Positions 16,414-62,090 of a stretch of DNA of 64,000 nucleotides are shown here, piece by piece. Position numbers and translations under genes: made by a program. How positions within the stretch are numbered: position 1 is the first letter of the stretch; every line of letters begins with the position of its first letter. This DNA is from Chloranthus sessilifolius. Taxonomy: Eukaryota > Streptophyta > Magnoliopsida > Chloranthales > Chloranthaceae. The DNA is taken from contig CM037586.1 in assembly GCA_021018995.1 (NCBI GenBank), positions 152,562,060 to 152,626,059 on the forward strand, read 5' to 3'. The notes beneath the pieces are model-generated. The model did no database searches. It had not been told where the DNA came from and saw nothing but the letters and a program-made list of their open reading frames with translations.

Positions 16414-16441
16414 GCCCCCCCCTCCAAAAAAAAAAAACATA

Positions 16442-34318: not shown

Positions 34319-34327
34319 CTATAAAAG
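34319..34327 (+). promoter_or_regulatory. TATA box of the SKOR/GORK-like gene
   Basis: CTATAAAAG lies 567 bp before the chosen ATG. It is followed about 30 bp later by the start of a pyrimidine-rich, leader-like region. Spacing puts transcription start near 34350-34360. Confidence 0.6.
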
Positions 34328-34349
34328 GGCATGAGCAAACTGTCAAAAT

Positions 34350-34885: not shown

Positions 34886-35100
34886 ATGACCTCACGAGAT
34901 GAGAAAGATATAGTGGAGTTGGAATACGAATTAGAGGGCTTGAAGGATCGGTTAAAATCTTCTCGCGAAAGCCGATTCTCTCTGATAACGAACGAGTATG
35001 GACTTGATCTGGCTCGGACAAAACTTGGTGGACAGAGAATTCTTCGAGGGCTAAAGCAAGGTTGTTATAATGGATTCTTTATTGAACCCGATACAAACAG
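34886..35100 (+). CDS. SKOR: K+ channel exon 1: cytosolic N-terminus
   Basis: The exon encodes residues 1-71 and two bases of Arg72. VELEYELEGLKDRL, ESRFSLITNEYGLDLA and the closing FFIEPDTN align with the N-terminus of Arabidopsis SKOR (VELEDYEV..., NRFNPLTNFLGLDFA, IVHPDN). The donor is ACAG|GTTCTC. The two leftover bases AG are completed by the A that opens exon 2 at 49916, restoring the conserved NRWY sequence. The start at 34886 gives a length like that of the family. This assignment rests on moderate similarity plus an exact phase match across 14.8 kb. Confidence 0.85.
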
Positions 35101-35107
35101 GTTCTCT

Positions 35108-35110
<3 letters not shown>

Positions 35111-35161
<51 letters not shown>
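35111..35161. repeat. (CT)n microsatellite at the start of intron 1
   Basis: About 25 uninterrupted CT units begin 10 bp inside the intron 1 donor and are followed by a T-run. Length variation is likely in the population. A pyrimidine tract this close to a donor could bind PTB-like proteins (inference). Confidence 0.95.
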
Positions 35162-35163
<2 letters not shown>

Positions 35164-35735
35164 TTCATTTTTTTTTTTTTTTCCATTTTCTGAGATTTAT
35201 TTTGACCAGAGATCACTTGTAAACGCATGCAGATTATGCCCGTGATATCGCACAAATTCTGGCCGGTAACCAAAAAGTGCGGAACGTATGTTTCGGTGGC
35301 CCGCCAGAATATATGCTATAAGCATGGCATATATATTATTAAATTAAAACTGCTTTACAATTAATTTGCACTTCTTTCCATCCGAAAAACAAATTGCACA
35401 CTTCTTAAGAATTCTCCTTCCTCTTCCCAATATATGGTAGCGGAAGTTTGACTTTAACCGTCGGTAAATAAAAAACTGCGGGATTTTCTAATTTTTATCA
35501 TTTTTTTACTTTTTTAAGAGCAAATTGGGTTGCCATTCAGAATTTAGTATATATATTTTTTAGAATAACTTCATTCAGAATTTAAATTTTATAATTAAAT
35601 ACGAAAAATCTATTTTTTATTTTCCTGGCACGGTGACCGGTTTTGGCACCGAGCAGGCCTGGCCTGAACACCAAGGATGGTGTTATAGTCATCCCTACCA
35701 AACTAATGAGTTTTAGGTCTACTTTTATACGTTTG
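35162..35735. other. Intron 1 sequence, nothing recognised
   Basis: No conserved frame, inverted repeat or tandem repeat was found. A stretch at 35230-35320 can be read as a short open frame but was rejected as an exon (see rejected items). Confidence 0.5.
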
Positions 35736-35949
35736 GCATTGTGTGACGGGGCCAATACTCGAGTTTGCAGCATGGTGCTTGGGGCACGACATGTGGTGCC
35801 AGGAGGGCACGCGATATGGGGGCCGAGAGGGCCTTGTGACGTGGTCGCGCTGCGGGGTCGCGACATGGTCGCATGGAGGGGGAAGATGCGGGAGCGATGC
35901 GGTCGCGACATAGCCAAGGTGGGCTAGCGATGCAGGAGGCGTTGCGGTA

Positions 35950-36734
35950 TGTCAAACCAAGGGGTTTGAGGTCCTCCCGCCATTCTGACTGAATGACTGT
36001 TTTACCTTTCTATGTGGGAGAGGAGCTGGAGAGTTGCCTTCCACCCACACGGGGCCTTGCGTTGCCAGAGGGGGCGCAAGTGTCTCTTAGGCCTGAAAGG
36101 GTGTGCATAGGATGTCGACGCAACGATGCCGTGTGGCACCCAAGGGAGGTTGATGTATGGCTCCGGACTACGCATCGCGGTGCATACGGCTGGGCAACCT
36201 CGTGAGAACACCAGGCTGCGTGGGACTCAGTTGAGCACGACAGCACGTGGGCCAAGGATAAATGAGTGCTAGTAATTCGAAACGCACACGAAGGTAGGCT
36301 GCGTGGGACTCAGTTGAGCACGCGAGCTCGAGGCACAAGGCTGTGGATTTGGTTCGGTAAGTGAGCAAGACATAATGGCATGGGGAGCTGCATGCCAAGA
36401 CTGTTGCGAAGCGAGGTACTAGTATAGTGCACAGGGTGAAGCTTGAGCATGCCAAGTTTAGCACAGTGGTGCAAGTGAGCGTGTCGTAAGGGGCACGATA
36501 CAGTTGGATGGTAGGCCGTGAAACAGAGGTAACCATGTTGGGGGAGTTCCCGTCCTCTAGGCGGGTGGTATCAGAGCTGATGTGTAGAAGGGTTGCCTTC
36601 GTTGCGCAGAAGATCATCGCGCTGGTTGAAAGCGTCGAAGGACGCCCATGATCGCTGGTATCGTAGGTCGACCTAGCGAAGCGTGCGTTAGGTGCCACAC
36701 GGGACTAAGGTTGCAGAAGTGCGACCCCGTGATA
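35950..36734 (+). repeat. LTR B of the TRIM-like array
   Basis: This 785-bp LTR starts TGTCAAACCAAGGGGTTTGA. It is followed two bases on by the primer-like TTGGTATCAGAG and GTTCGATCCAGAAGCGAT. It also holds an inner GGTATCAGAGCTGATG near 36569. Confidence 0.7.
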
Positions 36735-37238
36735 TTTTGGTATCAGAGACAAGTTCGATCCAGAAGCGATGATGCTATTGAGCAACTGGTGCGGAGGCAC
36801 GATATGTGGTGTCAAGAGGACACGCGACATCCCTGAGCTAGTTAACAGGTGAGGGCCTTGTGACAGCAGAATCAAGTTGACCCGGCCGGGGTGACAGTGG
36901 AGAGCTAGTGGGAAGGTGCGGACCTAAAGAACTAGAAATGTGATGCTAACAGGCTGGGAGGAGTTGGCGGGGTCAGTTCACTGCGATAATGCGTCAACGA
37001 GAACGTTGACATTTATAGAGTGGTGGAGGATGTGACGGGGCCAATACTCGAGCTTGCAGCATGGTGCTTGGGGCACGACATGTGGTGCCAGGAGGGCACG
37101 CGACATGGGGGCCAAGAGGGCCTTGTGACGTGGTCGCGCTGCGGGGTCACGACACGGTCGCATGGAGGGGGAAGACGCGGGAGCGATGCGGTCGCGACAT
37201 AGCCAAGGTGGGCTAGCGATGCAGGAGGCATTGCGGTA

Positions 37239-38035
37239 TGTCAAACCAAGGGGTTTGAGATCCTCCCGCCATTCTGGCTGAATGACTGTTTTACCCTTCT
37301 ATGTGGGAGAGGAGCTGGAGAGTTGCCTTCCACCCACACGGGGCCTTGCGTTGCCAGAGGGGGCGCAAGTGTCTCCTAGGCTTGAAAGGGTGGGCTTAGG
37401 ACGTCGACGCAGCGATGCCGTGTGGCACCCAAGGGAGGTTGATGTATGGCTCCGGACTACGCATCGCGGTGCATACGGCTGGGCAACCTCGTGAGAACAC
37501 CAGGCTGCGTGGGACTCAGTTGAGCACGACAGCACGTGGGTCAAGGATAAACGAGTGCTAGTAATTTGGAACGCACACGAAGGCAGGCTGCGTGGTGCTC
37601 AGTTGAGCACGCGAGCGCGAGGCACAAGGCTGTGGACTTGGTTCGGTAGGTGAGCAAGACATGATGGCATGGGGAGCTGCATGCCAAGACTGTTGCGAAG
37701 CGAGGTACTAGTGCAGTGCACAGGGTGAAGCTTGAGCAGGCCAAGTTTAGCACAGTGGTGCAAGTGAGCGTGTCGTAAGGGGCACGATACAGTTGGATGG
37801 TAGGCCGTGAAATAGAGGTAACCATGTTGGGGGAGTTCCCGTCCTCTAGGCGGGTAGTATCAGAGCTGATGTGTAGAAGGGTTGGCTTCGTTGCATGCGG
37901 AAGCGAAGCATCGCGCGGGTTAAAAGCGCGTCGAAGGACGCCCTGCGACTGTTGGTATCAGAAGTAGGCTGACCTAGCGAAGCGTGCGTTAGGTGCCACA
38001 CGGGTCTAAGGTTGCAGAAGTGCGACCTCGTGACA
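37239..38035 (+). repeat. LTR C of the TRIM-like array
   Basis: This 797-bp LTR is nearly identical to LTR B by eye, implying recent duplication or conversion. It ends CGTGACA at 38035 but is followed by an internal-tail sequence rather than a primer site, as expected of a 3' LTR-like position or a recombined array. Confidence 0.7.
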
Positions 38036-38294
38036 ATTGGCTCATTGTGACAGAGGTACGCAATGTGGCTACCTGGGCTATCCGTAGTGTCACTCGAGCC
38101 GCTTGTACTCCGTGTAGAGGCAGTGGCGACTTCGTCCCTAGGGCACGCGACATGGGGCCAGGAGGGCCTCGCGACGTGATCATGTTGTGGTAGTTGCGAC
38201 ACAGTTGTAGGGGAAGACGATGTAGAAGTAACATGACCGCAACATGGCCAGTTGGGCTAGCGATGTAGGGCGTTACGGTGTGAATAGTAAAGTA

Positions 38295-38948
38295 TGTCAA
38301 ACCAAGGGGTTTGAGGTTCTCCTGTCATTTTTGCTGAATTACTGTTTTACCCTTATATGTGGGAGAGGAGCTGGAGAGTTGCCTTCCACCCACACGGGAC
38401 CCTGCGTTGTCAGAGGGGCGCAAGTGTCTCCTAAGCCTGAAAGGGTGGGCTTAGGACACCGACGTAGCGATGCCGTGTGGCACCCAAGGCGAGGTTAAAG
38501 TATGGCTCCGGACTACGCGTCGCGGTGCATACAGCTGGGCAACTTCGCAAGAACACTTGAGCAATGTGTGGGACTCAGTAGAGCACGATAATATGAGGGC
38601 TGCGTGGGACTCTGTTGAGCACGGCAGCATGAGGTAGGCACACGACTGTGGGCTTGAAGTGAGGCGGAAGCACCGATGAACAATATAGCATGTGCAGTTT
38701 TGGCGTGTCGTAAGGGGCGCGATACAATTGATGGTAGGCCTGAAACAGAGGTAACCACAAGGGAGGGAGTTCCCGTCCTCTAGGCGGGTGGTATCAGAGC
38801 TGATGAAGAGATGCAACGAGGCACCGCGCGGGTTGATGGTGCGTTGAAGAACGCCCCTGTGACAGTTGGTATCAGAGATAGGCTGACTTAGCGCCTCGCG
38901 CGTTAGGTGTCGCACGGGTTGACATTGCTGAAGAGCGACCCCGTGACA
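38295..38948 (+). repeat. LTR D of the TRIM-like array
   Basis: This 654-bp LTR has TGTCA/TGACA inverted ends. TGGTATCAGAGC, the complement of initiator-Met tRNA's 3' end, lies at 38951-38962. It is diverged from B and C and closer to E. Confidence 0.75.
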
Positions 38949-39278
38949 TTTGGTATCAGAGCTAAGTTCGATCCAGAAGGGATGATACTAATGAGCTAAT
39001 TGGTGTCAGCTGAGCATGCAATGTGATGCCAAGAGGGCACGTGACATCCCCGAGCTAGTTAACAGGTGAAGACCTAAGAATTAGAGCAAACCGAAGGAAA
39101 GCTTGAGGTGAGGCGGAAGCGTCGATGAACAATACAACGTGTACAATTTTGGTGCCGGCAAGACATGCGATGTGGTGCCAAGAGGGCACGCGACATCCCC
39201 GAGCTATCTAGTACCGCAGAAAGGTCAGTGGCTTGCTGCTCTGTCATGATGCGACAAGGCATCAATGGAGTGTAGTAA

Positions 39279-39945
39279 TGTCATGGGGTTGCTCTTCAGC
39301 AATGTCAGCCCATGCAGCACCTAACGCACGAGGCGCTAAGTCAGCTTATCTCTGATACCAACTGTCATGGTGGCGTTCTTCAACGCACCATCAACCCAAG
39401 CGGTGCCTCGTTACCTTCTGCAATGAGGCCAACAAATCTCTTCATCAGCTCTGATACCACCCGCCTAGAGGACGGGAACTCCCTCCCTTGTGGTTACCTC
39501 TGTTTCACGGCCTACCATCAATTGTATTGTGCCCCTTACGACATGCTAAAACTGCACATGCTATATTGTTCATTGACGCTTCCACTTCACCTCAAGCCCA
39601 CAGTCGTGTGCCTACCTCATGCTGTTGTGCTCAACGAAGTCCCACGCAGCCCTCATATTGTCGTGCTCTACTGAGTCCCACGCAGCGCTCAAGTGTTCTT
39701 GCGAAGTTCCCCAGCTGTATGCACCGCGACGCGTAGTCTGGGGCCATACTTTAACCTCGCTTTGGGTGTCACACGGCGTCAACGTCCTAGGCTCACCCTT
39801 TTAGGCCTAGGAGACACTTGCGCCCCTCTGGCAATGCAAGGCCCCGTGTGGGTAGAAGGCAACTCTCCAGCTCCTCCCCACATATAAGGCTAAAACAGTA
39901 ATTCAGTCAGAATTAAAGGAGAACCTCAAACCCCTTGGTTTGACA
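39279..39945 (-). repeat. LTR E of the TRIM-like array, inverted
   Basis: This 667-bp LTR lies on the - strand with TGTCA/TGACA ends and matches LTR D as its reverse complement. Together with tails 38036-38294 and 39946-40200 the D and E arms form a head-to-head inverted repeat of about 0.9 kb per arm around a 330-bp centre. Confidence 0.75.
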
Positions 39946-40200
39946 TACTTTACTATTCACACCGCAACGCCCCACATCGCTAGCCCAGCTGGCCATGTCG
40001 CGTCCGTGTCACTCCCGCATCGTCTTCCCCTACGACCGTGTCGTGACAATTGCAGCACGACCACGTCGCGAGGCCCTCCTGGCCTTATGTCGTGTGCCCT
40101 AGGCACGAAGTCGCCACTGCCTCTACGCGGAGTACAAGCGGCTCGAGTGACACTACGGATGACCCGGGTAGCTATGTTGCGTACTTCCGTCACATCATGC

Positions 40201-41788
40201 TTATAGAATGAATTAACGGGTCGTTATTGACGTTTAAGGTTTAACCATAGAGCCCTATCAAAATTGAAGACCACACGGAGATTTAGAACCCCAATTCTTG
40301 TGAAGGCTAGCTTAATTTTGACATGAAGACATGGCTATGAAGGGAAGGGACACTTATATGGAGGACAGATTTTATGGGGACAAAGTGTAGGTGGCTGATG
40401 TGGCATGATACAATTGACTGCAAGTGCGGTTGACTCAATTAATGTAGGTCAGTACAACCAATCACATCTCGCCATATCACCTGTGTGCACTGTCTTCAAC
40501 AAATATGTGGTTTATAATTTTCCATAGGAAAGTGAATAAAAGAGGCTCCATGTGATGCTGTCTAAAATTGTGTCCTCCTTCATGTCGGTGTTGGACGTTG
40601 TTCTGGACCGCACAAGTAGTATGCACAACTTTGTCGTGAAGAAACTTGGGAATTGGGATAGATCAGACGGTGATGCTTAGAAGCACTGTTTGGTGGCAGA
40701 AGTTTGTCATATTTAGCCTGATCATGGCTGTCCAATGTGAGGCCTATAGCTGTTACTTGTTAGATCTCCTAACCGGGAGGCGATCGAGTTTCTTTTTACT
40801 TTTGAGACGTGGCATCTACGGTTCATGTACATGTTTTGCCAGGTGGCACATATTTCTTAGAGTCAGTCTACAATGAGTGTTTACCCATCATGGATATTAA
40901 AGTAATAGGCATATTTGTGGGATTGCATGATGTGCTCAAACTTTCGTGTATTAGAAGTTCGAATTTGTTAAGCAGTCACTAAGATGTGTGGACTGTCATG
41001 TCCACCCATGATAGGTGAAACCTAGTTATTGACTAACTCTAATCCTTAACCAAATTTCCTATCAAAGTTTGCAAATGAGTATCATTTGTTTTGCCACTTG
41101 GCACAAATTTTTTAACCAATCTAAACAGTCCAAGTTACCAGACAACTTGTGAGCTGTATTTTTGGGCTAAGTGAGTTCACAAGATGCACGCTGCCATGGT
41201 CGACTCTCTTGGTAAAATGTCATCAGGTACACCGCTATTGCCCTTGTCAAAACGCTTAACGACACAACACCGAAAAGCATTGATGCTTTGAATCAGAGAA
41301 TGAACATGATTTTTTTGTCCCAACTTCCACACAAAGAATTTAAATCATGGCGTTAGGGGCGCTCAATGCCAGATCACATGCCACGTGGCATGATCAATCC
41401 AAAACAAATCCCATTTTTGGATGGATCAGCCATCAGGCATGTGCTTTAAAAAAAAATTATTTTTTTAAATTTTTTGTTCTCCATTTAATAGGTTAAAAAT
41501 AAGGTTTGGTGCATTGATTTTTCTTTACTTTGACCACATTTTTAACGGTGGAAAAGTCATAAAAACCACTTTTTTTAATGCGATCTGATCGACCTTGCCT
41601 AAGTTGTCGTGACACCCGATCCTCATGATGGACGCCACATAATGGCCAACTAATGGTGGGTGTAGAGAATTCTCTACACCCGAGCGCATAGTCTCGGTCG
41701 TCTTAAATCGTAAACATACCATCAACCAATCATATTCTAATTTCACCAAGCACAAATCCTCCGAAAAGTGAACTAAGAATCATATTTG
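40201..41788. other. Intron 1 sequence, nothing recognised
   Basis: Low-complexity A/T runs occur near 41450-41475. No conserved frame or inverted-repeat element could be supported. Confidence 0.45.
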
Positions 41789-41796
41789 ATGTATGT

Positions 41797-42447
41797 GGCT
41801 CTCAACGAGCCGAGCCAGCTCAACAAAAAAAAAAAGAGCTTGCAAGTACCTTGAGTTCGACTCATGAGCCAAGCCAAGCCAAGCTATGAGTTAAGAGCTC
41901 ATTTGTAAACCGGCCGACCACGAATTGGGTAGTCTGTAGCCCAGATCGGCTTGACTCCATATGTAATATTTATTTTTAAATCCTTACATAGATTTGATTC
42001 TATGTAACGTAAATTACTAAAATATCCTAAATGCTAATCATTGGAAGCTTTTAACAGTTGAGAGTTTTGGGTATTTTACTCAACTAGAAAATAAAAATTC
42101 TAATCTACTTATAAATAGTTAGATCTATCTGCTCAAACCATAATCGCTAACTCTCATCTCCTCTCTCTTATCATGCTAATTTACCATGTAATGAAATACT
42201 TTAATTAGATACTTTTAATTAGAAGACTAGAAGTTTAACTATTTAAATATAGATAAATTTAAAATGTACTGTAGAAAGGAAGGTAATTAAAAATAAATCC
42301 AAACAAAAAAAAAATAATAACATAATATTAGGCTCGAAATTTTAAGCTCGAATATAAAAAAGCTCAGCTCAAGCTCTGTTCGAATATAAAGAGCCGACCT
42401 CAAGCTGGCCTTAGCTCGTTTCGAACTCGGCTCGCTGAGAGCCCTAG
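41797..42447. mobile_element. hAT-like nonautonomous element, GAGCTCG-rich ends
   Basis: The left end GGCTCTCAACGAGCCGAGC and the right end (on the - strand, CTAGGGCTCTCAGCGAGCCG) are inverted. ATGTATGT lies on both sides (41789-41796 and 42448-42455), an 8-bp duplication as hAT elements make. The left terminus lacks the CTAG seen at the right. The inside is AT-rich and noncoding. Confidence 0.75.
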
Positions 42448-42547
42448 ATGTATGTAATAATTGTGTTAACTTTTTTAGATATGAGTTAAGTGAAATCAAA
42501 TTTTGATCGCCTAATGTTACCACTGTGATCTCAAGATGCAATGTATG

Positions 42548-43400
42548 GTGTAGAAAATATGGTAATTAAAAAAAAACACAACAAATAAACCGCAAACAGA
42601 AGATTTACTTGGTTCGGCAATTTGCCTTCGTCCACGGGTGATGCTGAGTCCTTTCACTAATTTGTGAAAACTAGGATTACAAATCTTTCATATCTCACCT
42701 CATTCAATACAGAAATTGAGTGTACAATCCAATTTGTGAAAACTAGGTTGATTGTGGCTGGTTGTACAGTCCAACCTGTTGATCAACATCGTCAATAGAA
42801 TTCAAAGCACAATCTCACCTTATGAAAAATTGGGACGGAAAATGATCTCATCCTATAATTCAAAGTAGCCAATTGTTTTTTCTAATTTCTATTGCTCACT
42901 TTAGATAGAGTTTTATGCCACGAGAGCAGCCTTATAAGAGTCGCTAGGTAGAGAGATAAGAGTCTTTAAAAATATTGTTTTATCATTCATTTGCAACTAC
43001 TCTATTGAATTGTAAACCAACCACGTTATTTTTTAAGAGTTTGACGCCACGAGAGCTTTCTAGAGTAGACGAACTAAGGCTACCTGGGAGGTGGACGTTA
43101 TTTTTTAAGAGTTTGACGACACGAGAGCTTTCTGGAGTAGACGAACTTAGGCTACCTGGACGGTGCGTCTGAGCCACGCAATATGGATCGCGTACATTGG
43201 TTAACAATTATTTCCTGAGAGAGAATTGTTTGCGATACAAATGTATCTAAGTCATATAAAAGAGAAGCTTGGATTGTGACGGGAAGGTATTAGAATTGTT
43301 TGCGATACAAATGTATCTAAGTCATATAAAAGATAAGTGTATCTAAGTCATATAAAAGAGAAGCTTGGATTGTGACGGGAAGGTATTAGAATTTAGGAAA
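42548..43400. repeat. Repeat-derived region with two nested tandem duplications
   Basis: The left part has TGGTTCGGCAATTTGCCTTC then CGTCCACGGG, a block I associate with dispersed plant repeats. A 65-bp unit (CGTTATTTTTTAAGAGTTTG...) is repeated at 43023 and 43088, with a weaker copy before them. A second unit containing AATTGTTTGCGATACAAATG and GAAGCTTGGATTGTGACGGG is repeated over 43225-43395. No coding sequence is seen. Confidence 0.6.
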
Positions 43401-43788
43401 CTAGAAAGGAAACCATGCAGTGCACGAGATTGATCGAAAGAGGACCAATGGATTTGGCTTTTGAGGAACTTGTGTGATACACCGAAGTGATCAAAGGGGG
43501 ATTCGTGTATTAGAGGACTAGTAATTGTTTTTTTTTTTTTTTTTATTTCTCTTCTTTGGAAAAATATGTTTTTATGGGCTGAAGTTCTTTTGCCAACATC
43601 TTCGAGTTCAACCACATCTGCAGCCCTTGGATATGGTTGAATCTTGACTTTCATGATTTTCACTTTTTATAAGATGATGCACATTCAAGATTCCCTTGTT
43701 TTCAAGGGCTATAGGTTTGGTTGAACTCAAAATCCGGTTCAACCACAACTGCAGCCCACATCTTCAATATATCTTTAGTTCTTTTAAG

Positions 43789-44056
43789 GGATAATTAGAG
43801 AAACATGCCTTAAAAACAAACTTTTTAGCAAAAAAGACCCGATTTCAAACGTTTTAGAAAAAAGTGCTTTCACGGATTTTGGAACTTCAGAAAACCGTGA
43901 AAGCACTATTTTTTTTACAAACATTTTAGAAAAAACAGTGCTTTCACGTTTTTTTGAAGTTCCAAAATCCGTGAAAGCACCATTTTTCTAAAATGTTTGA
44001 AGTCAGGTCTTTTTGCTAAAAAGCTTGTTTTTGAGGCATTGTTTTCTGAAGTGCCC
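43789..44056. mobile_element. Foldback MITE, GGGATAATTAGAG family, copy 2
   Basis: The ends GGGATAATTAGAGAAACATG and the inverse of GGGCACTTCAGAAAACAATG frame arms that pair along nearly their whole length, including three GTGAAAGCAC blocks. TTCTTTTAA lies on both sides (43780-43788 and 44057-44065), a perfect 9-bp duplication as Mutator elements make. It is noncoding, and the related copy lies at 16442-16641. Confidence 0.9.
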
Positions 44057-44278
44057 TTCTTTTAAACAACTTCAGAGGTAGTTACTATTTTAACTTTTTA
44101 GGGTTTGTTTGGCGTACCAATAAAATGTCATTGTACTTCAATTTTGAAATATAAAATAAAATTATTTTTAATATAACAATTTTGTATTTTGACATATTTA
44201 TGAAAAAAAATTGATTTCTAAATTTAAACCTTAAAAGCCCTAAAATCACATTTTTTTTTAAATTCTATGCCTAATAGT

Positions 44279-44597
44279 TATAGTGACAAATTTCTCTGAA
44301 ATTCTCCAAAAAAGAGGTCAGAAGAAACTTTCGCTGAAATTTCGTTAATTTCTTTGAAATCGCCAAAATTTCATTAATTTATGTGAGATTAATAAAATTT
44401 CGCCAAAATTAATGAATTTCTTTTAACTTTAGTCATTTAAAAAATAATAGATAGAGTTTTTATAAATACTAAATATATAGTTTATACATAAATGATTTTT
44501 GTAGTCTCCGAAATTGTCGTGAAACTTTTCGAATTTTTTTCGAAATTTATCTGAAATGACTACCAAAATATTACCGAAAACAAAATTTGTCACTATG
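44279..44597. mobile_element. MITE, ATAGTGACAAATTT family, copy 1
   Basis: The ends TATAGTGACAAATTTC and GAAATTTG-like/CAAAATTTGTCACTATG are inverted. CTAATAGT lies on both sides (44271-44278 and 44598-44605). The 8-bp duplication suggests hAT. The interior is full of GAAATTTCG-like repeats. Confidence 0.75.
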
Positions 44598-44843
44598 CTA
44601 ATAGTCATAAATAGTAATTTTCAGAAAAAATATAAATAAATCTGAGTGTGTCAAGTGTTGAGCTTTTAAGACACATTTGCCCTGTAAGAGTCCTTTTTGT
44701 CGCCACCACAACAAAATTTGTCACTATGCCAATAGTCATAAACAGTAACTTTTCAGAAAAAATAAAAATAAATCTGAGTGTGTCAAGTGTTGAGCTTTGA
44801 AGACACATTTGCCCTATAAGATCCCTTTTTGTCGCCACCACAA
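44582..44843. repeat. Two tandem 131-bp units
   Basis: Units starting AAAATTTGTCACTATG at 44582 and 44713 are nearly identical through TTTTTGTCGCCACCACAA. The first unit overlaps the right end and target duplication of the MITE, so the duplication happened after that insertion. Confidence 0.85.
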
Positions 44844-45113
44844 ACGCTCTTTCCACCTTCATGTCACCCCTCCTCCTCCTCCTCCACCACTACTCTGCAC
44901 CACGACCAACACCTCTCCGCCACCACCACCTCCACATCACTGCCACCAACACTACACCTCCACTACCAGCAGCAGCAGCACCAACTCCTCTCTCTTTTTT
45001 TATAATGACTCCACCTCTTCTACAGCTACCACACCTCTCCGCTAGCATCATCACTATTAAAAAGGAGATGGTAGTTTATAAGCTTCATTAGTGAGAAGAA
45101 TCACTCTCTTTTA

Positions 45114-45357
45114 GGGGTTGTTTGGATACAAGGACTACATGATAAAATATGGCATAGTAAACGAATTACCATGGATTCAGTTGTTTGTATTACTCCTATT
45201 TACCGCAAAACATTAAAATATATTACGATCTCACCCCTCAAGAATAGGGGAGAAACGTAGTATTCCTGCATATTACTGCATATTCCTCTAAGTTAGCAAT
45301 ACATGGTAAAAATCAACAACTTTACCACATTTTATTAGGTTCTATCCAAACAGACCC
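45114..45357. mobile_element. Tourist-like (PIF/Harbinger) MITE
   Basis: The ends GGGGTTGTTTGGATA and TATCCAAACAGACCC are inverted and flanked by TTA on both sides (45111-45113 and 45358-45360), as PIF/Harbinger elements are. At 244 bp it is noncoding and AT-rich. Confidence 0.82.
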
Positions 45358-46643
45358 TTAGAAGGAACCATTTATGAAGAGGATGCTAATAACTCTCCAG
45401 ACTTCTTTCAGCCAAAGAATTCGCTTCGATACTTCCTTTAGTTCTGGCTTCTGGAATATTTTTGACTCAGCTTTTCATAGTAACTGGTGATCAAGCAGTG
45501 CTTAATTTAGGACTAAATTGTGACAAGTGCGAAGCCAAGATTTTCTTCTACATTTAAGGGGCCATAGGTAAAGAAAATGAGTAATAGGTATGTGTCACGA
45601 GCGTTAGGTGACTTAATACTTGGGGCACCTTTTGAGATGTGTGCCACGTGGAATTAGTGTGTGCTTGATAAGTGTTCTACAACTACGATGTAAAGATATT
45701 TTGTGTAAAATATTGGGGTGAATATTGATTTTCATAGTTTGATTTAAAGCAGTCAAAAATCATAAAAAATTAATGGCTACCTTGTAAATCAAATATATCA
45801 TTAATTTTAAATTCCATTTTACTACATTGAATCAGATGATGGAGGTAATTTTTTTATTTCAATATTTTACACAATAGACCTTGAGATCATGAGCGTAAAA
45901 TCATATAAAACACATAATGATTCTACATGACATACCTTCTAAAAAGTGAGTGAAGTCTTAAAAGTGTCGATGATTGAATCATGTATCTCCTATTAACTCC
46001 ATCGCGTACCTAATTCTAACTCCATTAACATTTTATAAAAGGGTTAATGAGGCATTGGATCACTCTCATCATATGATTATTAGCTTATAAAGAGCCATTT
46101 ACCTATGAATAATGTTGCAAACTTAGCTCTACAAATCTGTAAAAGGCCACTTTTAATAGGATTTTGAGGTTAAAATGTTTATGCTTCGGCTTCCTTAGCA
46201 AGTGCTTTGACTAAATTGGTTGGCGCAAAGAGAGGTACTTTTTTTTTTGATACAGCCATACGGTCGAGACAATCTCGAAAACCGAGAAGCAGACACACGT
46301 ACATATATGACAGTTGTGGAGCAGCGATAGAGAGCACCAATTATAGTGGTCAGGGTTAACGACAAAGGGAGTTTATCAACTGGACTAATGCCTCTTTAAT
46401 TTTATACTAGAGTCAAATAAATAAACAAAAGGAATGGATGCAATACAATTGAACCATAGGAAGGGGAAGACCTTCCCATGCATAAATTACTTCCATAAGA
46501 GCAAATATGATATGAAGAAGCATGGTTCAATGCCTCAGAGGTAATATTTATTTATTTATTTATTACGTTGATAGACATTTTGACAATTATGCATGAACAT
46601 ATATTGATATGAAGCATGGTTCAAAAAAAAAAAAGCCTAGAAG
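45358..46643. other. Intron 1 sequence, possible worn MITE
   Basis: Around 45730-46080, phrases such as TTGAATCAGATGATGG and CTTGAGATCATGAGCGTAAA resemble the inverted-repeat family at 20240-23080 and 50405-53800, but the ends are too worn to place. Nothing else was recognised. Confidence 0.35.
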
Positions 46644-46773
46644 CATAGTGACAAATTTCACCGAATTTCGGTGAAATTTCGCGAAATGGGGGTTAAACGA
46701 AAATTTTGGAAAAATTTCGGTTTTCAATATTTTTCGGTAAATTTCAGTATTTTTCGGTAAATTTTTTTTTTTA

Positions 46774-46822
<49 letters not shown>

Positions 46823-46928
46823 CCCCGAAACTTTCCTGAAATTTTTACGAAAGGTATCTAAATTAATCCAAAATGTACCAAAAGGACCCCCCACCGAAAA
46901 ATTCCCGAAAACAAAATTTGTCACTATG
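46644..46928. mobile_element. MITE, ATAGTGACAAATTT family, copy 2
   Basis: The ends CATAGTGACAAATTTC and AAAATTTGTCACTATG are inverted. The inside has GAAATTTCG and TTTTCGGTAAATTT repeats and a (TA)n run at about 46776-46820. The flanks CCTAGAAG and CCTACCAT are only partly alike, so the duplication has decayed. Confidence 0.7.
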
Positions 46929-47542
46929 CCTACCATTTATTTATTTATTTATATTTTTCCTATTAGTATCCTTTGTAATTTTTTTAATTATAAATTTAAT
47001 ACATGTCTTATTTAATGAGATAAGTTTAATCATCTAACGGTTACTATAAAAATCATCTAACTGTTTAAGAGAAAAATAATATACAAAACTAATCAATACA
47101 AATTCATATTGCAATGGGATGGTTTTGGGTCATCTCTGAATCGAGTCTGGTTCGCATTTGGTTCGCATTTGTTTTGAGTCTAAAACTTAAAAGAATTAGA
47201 CTCAAATTAAGTATATCTCAGGTCCGGGGATTGGGTCCAATTTGACGTTATCCATTGCCACACCATACTTTCATGTCGGTTTTGGACCTGACTTGCTCAC
47301 CGGGTCCAATTGTTTGGGTCCAAGCTTTCAAACCAGATTCAATCGATCCATCCCACTTGCACTCAATAGTCAAACCCCAATACCTACAAATATTTTGAAT
47401 TTATTAATTGGGCAATTATTTTATATTATTTATTTATAATAACTTTAAGATTTTATTGAAACAAATTAATGTGTCAATGAATATTTTTACTCTTAATAAT
47501 TTTGGACGCTTAAGAAGAGAAAATTGACCATTAATCACTCAA

Positions 47543-47544
<2 letters not shown>

Positions 47545-47586
<42 letters not shown>
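47545..47586. repeat. (ATT)n microsatellite
   Basis: About 14 uninterrupted ATT units. Confidence 0.95.
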
Positions 47587-48990
47587 GGTAATGATCCTTT
47601 GACTTGAGTATCCCAACAATACATGTTGCGCGACTCACAAGTGCCTCGAGTCATATGCCATTTTCCCCTTAATTTTATGGGACCTCAGTGCTTATTATTC
47701 AACTTCATCGAGCTACCTTGCCCAATGGTATTAACTCGATGACCTCTTTGAATGCCTAAGCCCGCGGATGGCGTACAAGTCATTTGTCGCAGACTTTGAG
47801 ATGTGCATGGATCTCCGAGATCGACTATTCAATGGTTTTGTGGACCTTGAGATCCATGTGGCTTTAATGATCATGGAGATCATAAGTGCTAGCGCCTGCA
47901 CTCCGATTAGTCTAAAACCGTGGCGTAGGCCGGTCAATAGGTCAGGCTAGCTCTAAAAGCTCTGTCGGAGCCTAAATGTTAGAGCTAAGGTCAAATTTTG
48001 AGGGCCCTAAGGTAAGGCTTATGCCATTCAATAAAAGCCCTAAAATTTTAGGGCTTGATTAGGATACGGCAAGGCCTGGCCCTATATATGTTGTTTATAT
48101 TTTTTTACACTACATTCACCCTCTTATTTAACTGGTATATATGTATAGATATATAGACAAATATATACAATAAATATATTTACCAATCAATCTTTGGCAC
48201 GCTCACTTAGTATATATATTTACTATTATACATATGTATGACTTTTATAATTTGATATTGTGCATATTTCAGTTTATATTTTAAATTAGGGTAATGATCC
48301 TCTCACTCGAGTCATGAGACATAATCCCATGACTCGAGTCATGTAACCATTTCTCTTAAAATTATCCATTACCATGTATTACATATATCTTATATAGCAT
48401 AAGAAAAAATAAAGGTATAATGTTCCAAAGCCCAAAGCTTGAACATAGCCTAGCCCCAACCACAGCCCCAGCCCTAGCCCTTCGACGACCATGTTAAAGC
48501 CCACTAGGGATAGGTCTAGGACTAGGGCCGACCAGGGACGGAGTCAAACTTTCATGGGAGGGGGCCAAAGTATGAACAAGAGATGTATAATGTTATAAAA
48601 AATAAAAATAGCATTCATTTATTGTTAACAAAATCTTAAAAAAAAAAAAATCTTTTATTTATATATATTCGTGCGCCTATCAATAGGCATGAGGGTCAAT
48701 CTGCAATAGCTGAGAGCCATATTAATTGGGCTAAGCCTCATTTTTAACTTTTAATGTCTGTTTGGATAAAATAGTAGGAAAATGACGAATTCGGATTTAT
48801 AAATATAATAAATTCACGTGATTTTTGAGGTTGTAGGAATCCACATGATCTTTTATTTTTTACGATTTCGATGGCCTAATCATGTGTCAGAGAGAGACAG
48901 AAATGTCTTAGGATATGATTTAAGAAGAGAAGTTTTAGGAGGGTGGTTGAACTATTGCTGCTAAAAATTAGGAGAGACTAAAGTAGCGTA
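47587..48990. other. Intron 1 sequence with worn repeats
   Basis: GGTAATGATCCT and a nearby CTCGAGTCAT block occur at 47588-47660 and again at 48293-48345, perhaps the worn ends of one element. A region rich in TAGGGCC/GGCCTAG-like words lies at 47930-48080 and 48430-48540. No gene was found. Confidence 0.35.
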
Positions 48991-49007
48991 TTTGGTTGAG
49001 ACGCCTA

Positions 49008-49150
49008 AAAGATAGGAGAGAGAGAGAGAGAGGAGACGCCTAAAAGATAGGAGAGAGAGAGAGAGCTCAGCTGTGCATTTATAGGAGAGAGAGAGAGAGA
49101 GGAGACGCCTAAAAGATAGGAGAGAGAGGGAGAGCTCAGCTGTGCATTTA
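49008..49150. repeat. Tandem GA-rich minisatellite
   Basis: Units containing GAGACGCCTAAAAGATAGGA, a (GA)n run and CTCAGCTGTGCATTTA recur two to three times with a period of about 70 bp. Confidence 0.8.
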
Positions 49151-49915
49151 TTTAGACGGGGCCAATCATTTTGGCGCCTAACAAATAGGTAAGATAGATA
49201 AAAGAGAAAGAAAAAAAATTAAATAAGCAGGGTGGCCGTGGCCCCTGTTAGCCCCCCCTGTGGCCGACCACAGTGGACTCCCAGCCAGGCAATGGTCCGA
49301 CCCGACCGTTTGATAGCCCTACTATGGCCATGGCAAATTTGATTGCCAAATCCATGAAAGTTAGGGGTCTCAATGGGTTGAGCGGGGCCCAATTGGTCAA
49401 TTATAAGTGGGCCCAACTTGTTTATGAATTGGGTCATATTTAAGTGGGCCCAACTTTTTTAATTAGACATTTGAAACTCACTTATATTTGGCCCGACTTA
49501 TAAATTAGTATGGTCGGGTCCAAACCATTTACATATAGACCCAGCCCGTTGAGACTCTTAACTAAAAGTTCAAAAATAGCTGTGGAGCTCGACCGTCTGG
49601 TAAAATGGAAATGGTTGTTGAGGAGAGAGATTCAATTGCCTTCATCTTTTGCCCTCCTTCTTTCGTTTTCCTTCTTTATAGAAAACAAAATGGCCAATCT
49701 CTCAGCTATCCACTGAAATCAGAATGGCCAGCCCATTAATCCATTAGGGAAGGAGCTGCCATATCATAGTGCTGAGCAGGATGATAATGTCCCGTTTTGA
49801 GATTGGCGCACTATCATCTGCTCAGCGGCATGAGAGGAGGAACAAAGATTGGAGTTCTAAAGCGAATACAAGAGGTTTTCGTTTATATAATAATGCGTTC
49901 GTGGTGATACAACAG

Positions 49916-50140
49916 ATGGTATCATGTGTGGACTCACTTCATACTGTTGTGGGCTGTGTACTCGTCTTTCTTCACCCCTCTGGAGTTCGGTTTCTTCAGG
50001 GGTTTACCGAAGGACCTTTTCTGGCTCGACATCGCGGGACAAGTGGCATTCCTTGCCGACATCATCGTCCAGTTTTTCGTTGCGTACAGGGATTCCCAGA
50101 CTTATCGGATAGTCTACAAGCGCAACTTCATTGCCCTCCG
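49916..50140 (+). CDS. SKOR: K+ channel exon 2: S1 and S2
   Basis: The acceptor is ACAACAG|A. The first base completes Arg72, then WYHVWTHFILLWAVYSSFFT begins S1. FFRGLPKDLFWLDIAGQVAF leads into S2 and FFVAYRDSQTYRIVYKR ends it. These strings are nearly diagnostic for SKOR/GORK channels. The donor is CCG|GTCTGA, leaving CG of Arg147. Residues 72-146 plus two bases. Confidence 0.95.
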
Positions 50141-50231: not shown

Positions 50232-50295
50232 TTACTTGAAATCAGGCTTCGTGTTTGATTTACTTGGTTGTCTTCCTTGGGATGCTATCTACAAG
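50232..50295 (+). CDS. SKOR: K+ channel exon 3: S3
   Basis: After a 91-bp intron (50141-50231) the acceptor AACAACAG|T completes Arg147. The 64-bp exon encodes YLKSGFVFDLLGCLPWDAIY and K168 and ends in phase 0 at AAG|GTACTC. FIIDLL-C-PWD-IYK is the conserved S3 of the family; here I-I is V-F. A CT/C-rich run follows the donor. Confidence 0.92.
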
Positions 50296-50438
50296 GTACT
50301 CTCTCTCTCTCTCCCCCCCCCCTCAAATTATCTATTTGCTTAGCTGTAGTACATTATTTTTGGTTTATTTGATTAGGGTACAGGTATTTGTAACTGAGGA
50401 TTCTACATTGGTAACCAGGGTTTTGGACCGTTAAAACC

Positions 50439-53400
50439 TGTTGAAATATCTACAAATTGTTTATGCTTGGGCTTTACTCTCTAGTTTTCTTATAATAGGC
50501 TTAATATACAACAGTTTTACTACCTGGATACCACACTAGTTGCCTCTGCTTTTCTTACCTATGTTATTCCCTTTCAGTGGCATTGTCGTTTAGGCCACCC
50601 ATCATTGTGTAGTTTGCGAAGTATTATTTCATCACTGTCATTGTCGAAACTTTAGAATGTGATGTATGTGAGCTGAGTAAGCACTATCGTGCTATCTTTC
50701 ATCCTCATACTGAGAGTCCAAGATGGAGTCCTTTTGCATTAGTACCTTTAGATGTTTGGGGCCATATTAAGGTGTTCAATATGCTTGCTTTTCAGTACTT
50801 TTTTACTTTTATGAATGATCATTCTCGAATGGCATGGCTCTATTTGAGGAAGGATCGTATTGAGGTTTTTGAGATGTTTTAAACTGTTTTATGTTGAAGT
50901 TGTTAATCAATTTAATGCTCATTTACTTACTTTGCGTACTGATAATGCCACATAATATACGTCACATGGTTTTCAGTCTTTTCTCGATTGTCATGGCATT
51001 GTTCATCTATCCTCATGCAACCATACACCTCAACAAAATAGAGTTGCTGAAATGAAGAACAGACATTTTCGTAAGGTAGTTTGTGCTTTACATTTATAAA
51101 TTTATGTTCCTAAATCGTATTGGAGTGATGCTATTCTTACTGCATATTATCTCACTAATAGGAAGCCATCATTTGTCTTAGATGGTAAGTCACCTTTTTC
51201 GATTTTATTTCCTGGCGAAAATCGTTTTTTCTACCTCCCAAAGTGTTTGGATGTCCATTTTGTTCATAATCTTAGGAGTGGACATGAGAAACTTGATGCC
51301 CGGGCCTCAAAATGTATATTTCTTGGATGTTCTAGAACCCAAAATGGATGTTGTTTTTATAGGTCCTTGTTGAAGAAACTGTTTGTTTGTGCGGATGTAG
51401 CTTTCTTCAAGTCCACTTTACCCTACTCTGATGAATGGTGTCAGTTTGAGGATCATGTGATAGAATTTGTTCCCGTTCCTATTCCTGTGATGGAATCTTT
51501 CCCCTTGCCAAATTGGACTTGGAAGGCCAAAATGACCCATAAAGGTCTTTTCCTATCAGTGCCTTCTCCACCAACCTCAGAGTCTGTGAATTCTCATGTC
51601 AGTTAGATGGAGGAGAGTGACCTTCATGTTGCTCTCGTAAAGCTAAACGCTTCTGCACCGAACAACCTATTTCCAATTTTGTTTCCCTTCACCGTTTGTC
51701 TCCTAAATTTTGGTGCTTTGCATCGTCCTTATCCGCTTCATATATTCCTGTTTCCTATGAAGAGACTCTTGCCCATAATGGCTGGAAGAAGGCCATCGAA
51801 GAAGAGATGGCATCTCTTTATTGTAGTGCTGCATGGATCATGGATGCTCACTGAACTTCCAGCTGGTAAGAAGGTTGTAGGGTGTCGATGGGTGTACCCC
51901 ATGAAGCAAAATTCGGATGGCTCGTGGAAAGAGTAAAAGCTAGATTAGTGGCTAAGGGTTACACCCGTACTTATGGGATAGATTATTCAAAGACCTTTTC
52001 ACCCATCGCCATCTTAAAATCCGTCAGGGTCGTTATCTCTCTAGCAGCTACTATATCCTGGCCATTGCTTCAGTTTGATGTGTAGAATGCTTTTCTTCAT
52101 GGAGTCTTGATAGAGGAAGCTTATATGAAACAATCACCTAGATTTGTTGCTCAAGTAGATGTGGAGAATGCTTGATGTGGAGAATGCTTTTCTTCAGTAG
52201 AGTTGTTACCACCCATGGGATGTAGAAATGTCATGGAGTTCATTTTGCGCCTTTAAAAGGACCGAAAGGGGATTATCATTCTTGTGGTATATGTTGACAA
52301 TATTGTTGTCACTAGTAGGGATGAAAAAGGTATTGAGATCTTAAAATACCAACTCCAAAGGCATTTCCATACTAGATACTTGGGTTCACTGTGATATTTT
52401 TTAGGTGTTGAAGTGACAAGATCTAAAATTGTTATTAACCTTTCACAGAGGAAATACGTGCCAAACCTTCTCGCCGAAACAAGCATGTTGGGGGCTAAGC
52501 CAGTTGATACCCCCATGGACCTAAATCGAAAGTTGATGGTCGATCAAGGAGAACTCTTGAGTGATCGAGGGGGATATATGAGACTTGTTGGGAAACTAAT
52601 TTACTTGACCATCCTTGTCCTGATATCACCTCTGTTGTTAGTGTTGTCAACCAATTCATGATGCACCAAGGGCCCCCCTTACTGAAGCAGTCATTCGGAT
52701 TCTTAGATATCTAAAGGGGGCTCTTGGTTGTCGTTTTCTATACAAGAGGAACGGTCATGTTAACGTCAAAGGATATACAAATGTTGATTGGGCTGGTTGC
52801 CCCCAAGATCGAAAATCTACTACTGGATATTACACATTCATGGATGGAATTCTCGTTTCATGGAGGAGCAAAAAGCAAAGTGTCGTTGCAAGGTCAAGTG
52901 TCTAGGCTGAGTAACTAGCTAGGGCTCACACTACGTGTGAGCTTATGTGGTTGCATACATTTCTTTGTGAGCTTGGGATACATGTGATAGAACCAATCAA
53001 GCTTCACTATGACTATCAGGCTGCCATGCATATTGCTAGTAATCATGTTTTTCATGAAAGGACAAAGCATGTTGAAGTTGACTGTCACTTCATTCATGAG
53101 AAGATTTGTAATGGTGAGATATCCACTCTGCATGTTTCATCATAGAATCAACTTGTGGACATCTTCACAAAGACTTTAGGTTGGGCTTCAAGCCGTCAAA
53201 TCTGTTTCAAGCTGGGTATGGATGATATCTATGCTCCAGCTTTAGGGGGAGTGTTGGAATATCTACATTTTCTTTATGTTTGGGCTTTAGTTTCTACTTT
53301 TCTTGTAATAGGCTTAATAAACAATAGTTTTAAGTGTAAGGGCATTCTTGTAATTTTTCATGACTCGAATATTAATATAGAGGGAGTGGGACGTGGGATT

Positions 53401-53502
53401 CACTCAACTCTCTCATCCCTCTCTTTTTCATTCTCGTCCTTTCTTTCTCTCTTCTCTTCTTTTGTTGCAAACCCTAACCCTAACCCATGAGATATCTTAA
53501 CA
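50439..53502 (+). mobile_element. Ty1/copia element in intron 3, broken
   Basis: TGTTG... starts at 50439 and ...TTAACA ends at 53502, with AAACC on both sides (50434-50438 and 53503-53507). Parts in order are a left LTR remnant (50439 to about 50520), a GAG-pre-integrase block (about 50575), integrase (50690-51190), RT (51850-52400), RNase H (52640-53140), a purine tract AGCTTTAGGGGGAG, and the right LTR (53252-53502). It is a fossil, short for the family and broken in many places. The two LTR ends differ at roughly a sixth of positions by eye, so the insertion is old. It lies in the same direction as the channel gene. Confidence 0.9.
53252..53502 (+). repeat. Right LTR of the copia element
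   Basis: The 251-bp LTR begins TGTTGGAATATCTACATTTT, just after the purine tract, and ends TATCTTAACA. Its last part includes a short AACCCTAACCCTAACCC run at about 53469-53487. Confidence 0.8.
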
Positions 53503-53859
53503 AAACCGTTGATTGCCTTGAATCTGACGATGGAGTTCGCTTTTCATCTCAATCTTCCACGATTATATTTTGAGATCATGTTCCACCTATCAAACGGTCA
53601 TATGTTGATTCCACATGGAATACATCCCTAAAAGTGACCATTCTCATGGTACACTCATGATCAAGGTCACTTTGGGGGATGTTTGTCACGCAGACTCAAC
53701 ATCTGACCGTCCGATGGGTTGGACATGATCTCCATATCTGTAGTGTAGAAGATTGGGACGAAAAATGATTCAAGGCAGTCAACGGTTTTAACGGGTGAAA
53801 ACATTGTTTGCGAAAGTAAAATCTTTAGTTGCAACCCCCAGTTGCAACTATAGATAGCC

Positions 53860-54370
53860 ATTTGATTAATAATGCTCTTGATTTTAAGGTATGGATTAGT
53901 TTGTTAGTTGTCTTTTTAACCGTGTCATACTAGATTCAAGACCCCTTGGTGGAAGATAGAATATTTAGAATCTAGATTGCCTTGTTTGTTTATTTTATAC
54001 GTTTTTTTTGTTGATCAGTGAAGTGCTAATTCTTAGCAAGAAAAAGAATAAAGTGAACTTGACATTCACCTAGGTCCATAATTGAGAAAAGGATTGAACT
54101 CGACTAGTCGACTCATAAATGAAACACCTTGGTATCCATCAAGTAGGTTGCAACTTAGTTCCATTTTGTTCATTCATTTTAGTTCTATTATTTCTTATAA
54201 CAATTCTTTTGTTCCCTCAAATAGTAGTTACAAGGAAATGATGATGATGGATTCTTTTGTCGTCCAACTGGATTGACTAATGACTCACAAAGTCAATTAT
54301 GCTCTCCTTGTGGATAATCCAGAAACCAGGCATGAATCAGCCCAAACATCACACATCAGAGGATTGGAGC
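53860..54370. other. Intron 3 sequence, nothing recognised
   Basis: No conserved frame or repeat end could be supported. Confidence 0.45.
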
Positions 54371-54374
54371 CATC

Positions 54375-54443
54375 TGATCAGAGCATTTTAATGTGAACTG
54401 CTAAGTAGATTTGAACGGTGGTCCACATTAAAGTGCTCTGATC
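54375..54443. repeat. Short inverted repeat
   Basis: GATCAGAGCATTTTAATGTG (54375-54394) pairs with CCACATTAAAGTGCTCTGATC (54423-54443) across a loop of about 28 bp. It could be the end pair of a small MITE. Confidence 0.7.
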
Positions 54444-54529
54444 TAGCACTGCCCAATTCTTCAATGTCCTCGTCCATCATCCTCTCCTATGCATGGTAGT
54501 GGTAGAGGATTCTTGGTGCTTTCTTCACT

Positions 54530-55290
54530 ACTTGGACACTTTCCCTGTGAAGTGGCACTGGAAGGAGCATAGAATGGAGTGGACTTAAAGAATGTAACAT
54601 CCATAGTGACAAAGGATGTCCCTATAGAAGGATCATAACACTTTTACCCTTTCTAAGTGACAAGTTACCCAACAAACATACACTTAAACCGCCTTCGCAG
54701 AGAGTTTATCACATTTATTGGATGGAATATGAGCAAACGAACACAACCTAAAGTCCTAGGATGTACAATAAAAACCTACTGCTAGAACATAAAACCTTGT
54801 AGGGAGACTTCCCCTCAAGTATTGGTGTAGGCATGCTATTGATGAGGTAGCTAGAGGTGAGGACAGCTTCACCCCATAAATTTTTGGGAACATTCATACA
54901 CAATAGCAAGGACCTAGCAACCTCAAGGAGGTGCCGGTTTTTTCTTTCAACCACTCCGTTTTGTTGTGGAGTGTAAGGACAAGGGGATTACCACTCAATT
55001 CCATGCATCCGTAGGTAAGATTAAAGACAGTGGGATGAGTATTCTCCCCCATTGTCATATCTCAGTATCTTGACCTCAGTATTGAATTGAGTCAGCCCAC
55101 TTGCGAAATCGCGCTAACCTCATCTTTGGTTTTCATAAGAAAAGGGGGTGTATGGAGTACACTCATCAATAAATGAGCCAAAGTAACAGTGACCACCAAC
55201 AGAAACAACTGAGGAAGGCCCCCACACATCAGCATGAACAATTTTGAAAAGAATATCACGTTTACTTGAAGAAATTGGATAAAGATCTAC
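54530..55290 (-). pseudogene. Ty1/copia integrase fragment, antisense in intron 3
   Basis: The - strand frame at 54954-54748 contains VERKNRHLLEVARSLL and WGEAVLTSSYLINSMPTP, the conserved end of copia integrase. Upstream on the same strand (55290-55110) are pieces of the preceding integrase core. No LTRs were found. It is a broken fossil fragment unrelated in orientation to the complete-ended copia element nearby. Confidence 0.8.
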
Positions 55291-56186
55291 TATGTGTACA
55301 CCCGAAATAAGAGAAGCATAAATGACTTAGGTGAACTACTACACACACAACATATCTAAGTACCACGGACATATCTAAAATATATTCTAACAACATATCT
55401 AAGTACCACCGACATATCTAAAATATATTCTAACAACAGTTTCGTTATGAATACCATTTGTGGGTTCCAATTGAAATCTGCATAAATTTTTTTTTTTTTT
55501 TTATAGTTTTGGTTATTATGTTTGGACCAAGTTGAAATCTAAGATCAAGGTGAATAACTTTTTCAAAGATGATGGTGAAAATGTTTTAACTCATTTTAAT
55601 CTTATGGTAATTTCTTTGGGTGTTCATGTTATAGAAACTGTTCCACTTGTACTCTGATTTTGACCAGTTGTGTAGCAAGTTTGATGATGTTATTCAGCTT
55701 CTACTAACTAGAAGATTCTAATAATTTATTGAATGTATTGTTTCACTCTGTTGGACTGCTTCGTCTAGCTATGCCTCACCTTTATTTCATTTAAATGCCT
55801 TTTTAGTATGGCAAATCATATTTTCCTTCTATCATAGGGATGATTTTTCGCTTTTAACAAGGAGAAACAGTGTATATATGTTAAGAGGTGCATATACTCA
55901 GATATTACAGCAGGATCCTACATGATATTTTTTTGAAGAGCTTTTAAAAAATTTAAATTATTCTTTGAAACATTGCTAAGAGGTGCCTTTCTGTAAGATA
56001 TGCCTAACATTTTTTGAGGCGTGCATTAGAATAAGTTTCAATTGTTTTATTAATATTATTCTTTTTTATGAAATTAGTAATCTTAAAGTACTATGATTCT
56101 TTCGGCGTTTTCAACATATCATGTTATATCTATCAAACTAGCTACCACTCTTGATAGAATTTTTCAACGCAATGTGCTCAAATCAG
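55291..56186. other. Intron 3 sequence before exon 4
   Basis: A 43-bp unit containing AACATATCTAAGTACCAC and ATATCTAAAATATATTCT is tandemly repeated at 55345-55440. The rest is AT-rich with no frame recognised, up to the acceptor at 56186. Confidence 0.5.
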
Positions 56187-56526
56187 GCATGTGGAAAAAA
56201 AGAGGAAGTAAGGTACCTTTTGTGGACTCGGTTAACACGAGTACGCAAAGTAACTGATTGTTTCCAGAAGCTGGAGAAGGACATCCGTATCAACTACTTG
56301 TTTACAAGGATAGTGAAACTCATTGTTGTTGAGCTCTATTGCACACATACAGCTGCCTGCATTTTTTACTATCTGGCGACCACTATGCCTCCTTCTAAGG
56401 AAGGATATACATGGATAGGAAGTTTAAAGCTTGGTGATTATAGCTATGCACACTTCAGAGAAATTGATCTTGCAAAGCGGTACTTGGTATCGCTATATTT
56501 TGCCATAGTCACCATGGCAACAGTTG
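56187..56526 (+). CDS. SKOR: K+ channel exon 4: S4, S5 and pore helix
   Basis: The acceptor is AAATCAG|G. The 340-bp exon encodes residues 169-281 and one base of Gly282. S4 carries Arg/Lys at 177, 183, 186, 188 and 189 (VRYLLWTRLTRVRKVTDCF). KLEKDIRINYLFTRIVKLI begins S5, and VELYCTHTAACIFYYLAT continues it. EGYTWIGSLKLGDYSYAHFR is the pore turret, and SLYFAIVTMATVG the pore helix and filter start. The donor is GTTG|GTAAAT. Thr185 stands where SKOR has Tyr, a mild oddity in S4. Confidence 0.97.
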
Positions 56527-61794: not shown

Positions 61795-62090
61795 GTTATG
61801 GAGATATACATGCAGTCAATCCGAGGGAAATGATATTCATCATGATTTACGTTTCTTTTGATATGATTCTCGGGGCTTATCTGATTGGTAACATGACGGC
61901 ATTGATAGTCAAGGGGTCAAAGACAGAAAGATTTAGGGACAAAATGACAGATTTGATTAAATACATGAACAGAAATAAACTTGACAAAGAAACACGTGAC
62001 CAGATCAAAGGACACGTACGATTACAGTATGAGAGCAGTTACACAGAGGCTACGGTTCTCCAAGATATTCCAGTCTCCATTCGTGCTAAA
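61795..62090 (+). CDS. SKOR: K+ channel exon 5: selectivity filter, S6, C-linker start
   Basis: The acceptor is GCCACAG|G. The first two bases complete Gly282, giving the filter GYGD, then IHAVNPREMIFIMIYVSFDM and ILGAYLIGNMTALIVKGS (S6) and KTERFRDKMTDLIKYMNRNK of the C-linker. It ends SIRAK at AAA|GTGAGA in phase 0. Residues 282-380. The next family residues (IAQTLYLPY...) are not found in the 1.9 kb that follows, so intron 5 runs past the edge. Confidence 0.97.

Follow-up and report, generated by a model that had tools for sequence, protein, structure and literature searches.

Does a 71-codon open reading frame (ORF) that looks like an orphan represent the first exon of a potassium channel gene whose second exon lies 14.8 kb downstream? 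The question is raised by a 64,000-nucleotide stretch of Chloranthus sessilifolius DNA (GenBank assembly GCA_021018995.1, contig CM037586.1, positions 152,562,060 to 152,626,059, forward strand), hereafter the window, in whose own numbering all coordinates are given. The frame, at 34886-35100, had been assigned to the N-terminus of the K+ channel SKOR in an initial annotation, and our analysis of the sequence strongly supports it as exon 1 of a SKOR-type channel. The region is predicted to be the 5′ half of a single, apparently intact gene for an outward-rectifying Shaker K+ channel of the SKOR/GORK type, with exon 1 spliced across a 14.8-kb phase-2 intron to exon 2, a reading to which we give a probability of roughly 0.93. 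The parts of the gene are as follows:

34886..35100, plus strand, predicted coding exon 1: 71 codons plus two bases, encoding the cytosolic N-terminus of a K+ channel of the SKOR/GORK type (phmmer, tblastn, shuffle control)
35101..49915, plus strand, predicted intron 1: 14,815 bp, GT-AG, phase 2
49916..50140, plus strand, coding exon 2: NR/WY through the first membrane helices, 57/75 residues identical to SKOR
50232..50295, plus strand, coding exon 3: 16/22 identical to SKOR
50296..56186, plus strand, intron 3: 5,891 bp, with a degenerate Copia-like element inside (about 50439-53332)
56187..56526, plus strand, coding exon 4: ends one base into the GYGD codons, 89/113 identical to SKOR
61795..62090, plus strand, coding exon 5: GYGD filter onward, 83/99 identical to SKOR

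The five exons, joined from 34886 to 62090, make up an uninterrupted reading frame of 1,140 bases, or 380 codons, and introns 1 to 5 measure 14,815, 91, 5,891, 5,268 and >1,910 bp. In the PDB sequence set, residues 5-380 of the product match residues 15-388 of Arabidopsis SKOR (PDB 8jet, 8jec, 8wtz, 8wui; E 7.1e-177, 591 bits), the best match across exons 1-5, and Arabidopsis GORK (PDB 8wfz, 9l9u) comes second with 541 bits, its match beginning at residue 64 (E about 1e-161). AKT1, KAT1, KAT3 and AKT5 follow at 208, 207, 193 and 170 bits; judged on these similarity scores, and not on a tree, the channel appears nearer to SKOR/GORK than to the AKT/KAT channels, and it would be outward-rectifying. 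The translation carries the Pfam domains Ion_trans (E 1.3e-27) and Ion_trans_2 (E 2.5e-9), with the GYGD filter present as TMATVGYGDIHAVN. The gene continues beyond the end of the window (base 64000), and the fifth exon ends at 62090, ahead of the cyclic-nucleotide-binding homology domain and the ankyrin repeats.

The frame of exon 1 is open from 34751 to 35245; the ORF starts at the first in-frame ATG and runs for 71 codons plus AG, followed by a GT at 35101. It could have arisen by chance, with no relation to the channel, in that it comprises 71 codons only, no Pfam domain was found in it, and its similarity to SKOR is weak when it is searched in isolation (E 0.0013, phmmer against 177,635 distinct PDB sequences). 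Nevertheless, SKOR is the best match in that search and the only channel at E up to 10, the other chain listed being unrelated (E 0.29). In the opposite direction, a 65-residue N-terminal stretch of SKOR searched against the whole window (tblastn, composition adjustment off) finds 34901-35092 at E 2.1e-7, the next match being at 0.13; with default statistics the two values are 9.2e-7 and 1.5. When the SKOR N-terminus was shuffled 500 times, the highest score was 32.3 bits, below the observed 37.7, and together with the window-wide search this places the similarity beyond chance. Upstream of exon 2, 119 ORFs begin with ATG and reach a phase-2 GT after at least 20 codons; each was compared with the SKOR N-terminus over its whole length, past the donor too. 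The exon-1 ORF scored 87, the runner-up 33. With these three controls, and with the exact junction described below, a chance frame is rejected, its probability being next to negligible.

The junction was claimed to rebuild a conserved motif, in that the two leftover bases of exon 1 and the A at 49916 would make NRWY, and this is exact in coordinates, frame and phase: the joined codons read EPDTNRWYHVW. Intron 1 begins with GT at 35101 and ends with AG at 49914-49915, phase 2 being consistent on both sides; it thus has the ends and phase of a U2-type spliceosomal intron, and its excision is predicted. An in-frame TGA occupies 49905-49907, 8 bases ahead of exon 2, and a single AG (49914-49915) lies between this stop and the conserved residues, so that the acceptor of exon 2 is fixed, given a GT-AG intron, and an alternative acceptor is rejected. 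Past exon 1, the reading frame offers no Met until residue 235, which exon 4 encodes. The gene therefore requires a coding exon ahead of exon 2, and transcription initiated immediately before 49916 could not give a channel with a voltage sensor. The same two features, the stop codon and the distant Met, exclude the expectation that an annotation pipeline would probably start the gene at exon 2. A pipeline must leave the model partial, begin it far downstream, or take a false first exon.

The true first exon might instead lie elsewhere, nearer exon 2 inside the 14.8 kb, with 34886-35100 being a relic cut off by insertions. Between 35246 and 49900, 97 ORFs start with ATG and meet a phase-2 GT after at least 5 codons (26 of them from 44915 on, and 4 of them from 48915 on), which makes a short, unconserved first exon formally possible, and a TATA-like string is present at 49884. 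However, a start from that string would again meet no in-frame Met before residue 235, the next-best of the 119 scored ORFs reached 33 vs 87, and the SKOR N-terminus found nothing under E 0.13 elsewhere in the window. The exon at 34886 also still has its ATG, an open frame, a donor and the exact phase at the junction, all features that a relic might have lost. We consider the relic very unlikely.

Several points weigh against exon 1 as part of the channel gene. Its identity to SKOR is 31% (21/67 aligned residues), compared with 73-84% in exons 2-5, and it has an extra codon directly before NRWY (the T of DTNRWY) that is without counterpart in SKOR and GORK, besides another residue inside the N-terminus that is extra relative to SKOR. 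The intron-1 donor, CAG/GTTCTC, matches the consensus CAG/GTAAGT at 5/9 positions and is weak by that measure, and pyrimidines make up 47% of the acceptor tract, the same share as in intron 3 and a lower one than in introns 2 and 4. A length of 14.8 kb is several times that of the intron in peach PpGORK, which belongs to the same channel group and, at over 2.7 kb, has the longest intron among seven peach Shaker genes and the longest Shaker intron that we found in print (available parts of PMC8926527). Finally, the C-terminal half of the gene lies outside the window.

These points are to be read beside others. The protein of exons 1 and 2 aligns to SKOR 15-155 in a single stretch with only two single-residue gaps (E 1e-46). 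The donor has a U1 pairing energy of -5.6, in the top 7% among the 3,590 GT sites of the strand, and ties for the best U1 pairing among the five donors of the gene in the window. The splice sites, described in the initial annotation as being of good quality, are usable rather than good, that is, ordinary for this gene and not high quality. The low conservation of exon 1 might also mean that exon 1 and exons 2-5 come from different gene copies, brought together through assembly error or rearrangement, and the interval between them is repeat-rich, a setting in which assemblies may err. On the other hand, the strand is shared, the order is right, the phase is exact and the window holds one such exon; moreover, the N-terminus is also poorly conserved against GORK, whose match begins only at residue 64 and leaves most of exon 1 without a detectable counterpart. 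A mixture of gene copies is extremely unlikely, and the single gene with its exon 1 at 34886 is retained.

Beside the extra codon, the end of exon 1, GATACAAACAG (35090-35100), was seen to resemble the end of intron 1, GATACAACAG (49906-49915). A likeness to the exon-1 end as good or better is found at 6/565 other CAG-ended and 9/3768 other AG-ended sites of the window, the intron end being counted, and the resemblance is probably due to chance.

Upstream of exon 1, transcription would most likely start near 34350 from a TATA-box promoter, as suggested by the following element:

34320..34331, plus strand, TATA-like box TATAAAAGGGCA, probable core promoter (called from sequence only)

The stretch 34350-34885 contains five upstream ATGs, including the start of a 54-codon upstream ORF (34722-34886) whose TGA overlaps the main ATG. 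A possible intron in the 5′ untranslated region (34695-34798, CAG/GTTCGT ... TTGTTGCAG) would delete the start codon of this upstream ORF; its retention could thus damp translation.

Intron 1 was further proposed to hold an array resembling a terminal-repeat retrotransposon in miniature (TRIM) and at least five miniature inverted-repeat transposable elements (MITEs). The array is real as a set of long terminal repeat (LTR)-like units, while one MITE-like foldback, not five, is well supported. The repeats of intron 1 are:

35103..35161, plus strand, (TC)n microsatellite starting right after the donor GT of intron 1 (Tandem Repeats Finder)
35742..40194, four related LTR-like units, GC-rich and about 0.9-1 kb each, forming an array (self-BLASTN, repeat search, unit ends, composition)
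35742-36732, plus strand, LTR-like unit 1 of the array
37031-38033, plus strand, LTR-like unit 2
38046-38950, plus strand, LTR-like unit 3
39277-40194, inverted, LTR-like unit 4
43786..44058, MITE-like foldback, related to a copy at 16441-16641

The LTR-like units begin with TGTGAC. The first two, in direct orientation and 298 bp apart, are 94% alike (Kimura two-parameter distance, K2P, 0.055), and the third differs from the inverted fourth by a K2P of 0.114. A further relative at 15180-16413, outside the gene (self-BLASTN), indicates that the family is not confined to intron 1. The string TGGTATCAGAG, which we take to be the usual primer-binding site for the initiator-Met tRNA, follows two of the unit ends, at 36738 and 38951. 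It is no clear marker of a primer-binding site, because five more copies occur in the array (plus strand, 36566, 38789 and 38867; minus strand, 39350 and 39449), with none elsewhere in the window. TRIMs have terminal direct repeats that start with TG, a primer-binding site behind the first repeat and no coding capacity; they are small, with terminal repeats of at most a few hundred bases. The repeats here, at about 0.9-1 kb, exceed what a classic TRIM would have, and "LTR-like element of unknown type" is the more cautious label.

Beyond the foldback, the search of 40200-49915, which covered terminal repeats of 20 bases or more, gave only inverted repeats that are short or diverged, or that consist of simple TA runs; in 35101-40200 it covered repeats of 60 bases or more. 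The figure of five MITEs is accordingly neither confirmed nor excluded. No Pfam domain was found in seven of the eight ORFs of 110 amino acids or more that lie wholly inside intron 1 (the one at 37989-38324 being left out), and ORFs of 75 amino acids or more in 40200-49915 were judged by eye only. As far as tested, a protein-coding gene nested in intron 1 is rejected.

Taken as a whole, we infer that transcription would run from the TATA-box promoter near 34350 through exon 1, which encodes the cytosolic N-terminus as far as the membrane domain's edge, and that the 14.8-kb phase-2 intron would then be removed by ordinary GT-AG splicing, joining exon 2. Intron 1 is probably ancestral and would have been enlarged later, with insertions of the LTR and foldback types accounting for at least part of its length. 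It is not the only long intron of the gene, introns 3 and 4 being 5.9 and 5.3 kb, and intron 3 also contains a retroelement.

Such introns, rich in transposable elements (TEs), are already well known in plants. Chloranthales and magnoliids are reported to abound in long genes and in long introns rich in LTRs, with 876 genes >20 kb among the 2,184 orthologues compared in Chloranthus spicatus (available parts of PMC8626473, where SKOR does not come up); the gene described here, with its LTR-like units, resembles those with LTR-filled introns. Grapevine has 2,697 introns of 3-100 kb, and in a 39-gene comparison its large introns were predominantly 5′, over 40% of them being intron 1 or 2 (PMC3058033, in part). 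The same source reports that TE-bearing large introns had wrongly split gene models, shown there with expressed sequence tags, whereas the present case is argued from genomic sequence alone. Heterochromatic introns of rice are likewise reported to be TE-associated and biased to 5′ ends (PMC7145194, in part). With regard to Shaker genes, millet group V, which by that paper's own grouping includes SKOR/GORK-type channels, has 8-11 introns (PMC9218596, in part). Papers on Shaker intron structure give intron numbers but do not say where the first intron of SKOR genes falls, as far as the available parts of PMC9218596, PMC8926527 and PMC11395327 go, and the available parts of a paper on SKOR structure (PMC10313817) gave nothing on the N-terminus.

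At the level of sequence, the gene model appears right, and its biology is ordinary, one more case of a TE-bearing long first intron. Its value lies mainly in correcting annotation: the complete channel protein needs the upstream coding exon, and models without exon 1 would be wrong about the promoter as well as the protein. For GORK, the pre-membrane segment is given as residues 1-57, and a 2025 study, as cited in the available parts of PMC12742848, describes the N-terminus as a gating 'safety catch' that restrains opening. By alignment, exon 1 spans about this segment and would therefore hold the part said to restrain GORK opening.

One might go further and regard the 14.8-kb intron as a regulatory switch that tunes the full-length channel against early-terminated or differently started transcripts. 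In such a scheme, exon 1 would coincide with the segment reported to hold GORK shut, and the tuning could come from the weak donor directly followed by (TC)n together with the inverted LTR-like pair, which could seed heterochromatin. We regard this as very unlikely.

Further repeats were noted in the window. The degenerate element of intron 3 (50439-53332), Copia-like by eye, is bounded by an 81-bp repeat pair (50439-50519 and 53252-53332, 86% alike, self-BLASTN) and contains a Pfam SH3_retrovirus domain, an SH3-like domain of retroviral polymerases, at 51100-51603. Intron 4 has three tandem 88-bp copies at 60548-60815 (98% alike), and intron 5, near the window end, has a minisatellite at 63565-63993 with about 15 copies of a 29-bp unit, CACCTAGGTGGCTAGAAAATATACTTAGC, that has the palindromic core CACCTAGGTG (Tandem Repeats Finder). 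A series of long minus-strand ORFs at 450-4478, with a reverse transcriptase domain at 990-1778, is probably an LTR retroelement, Ty3-like by eye. Also upstream of the gene, a 405-bp pair in opposite orientation (14062-14466 and 25350-25754; 94% identical, self-BLASTN) is likely to be a mobile element.

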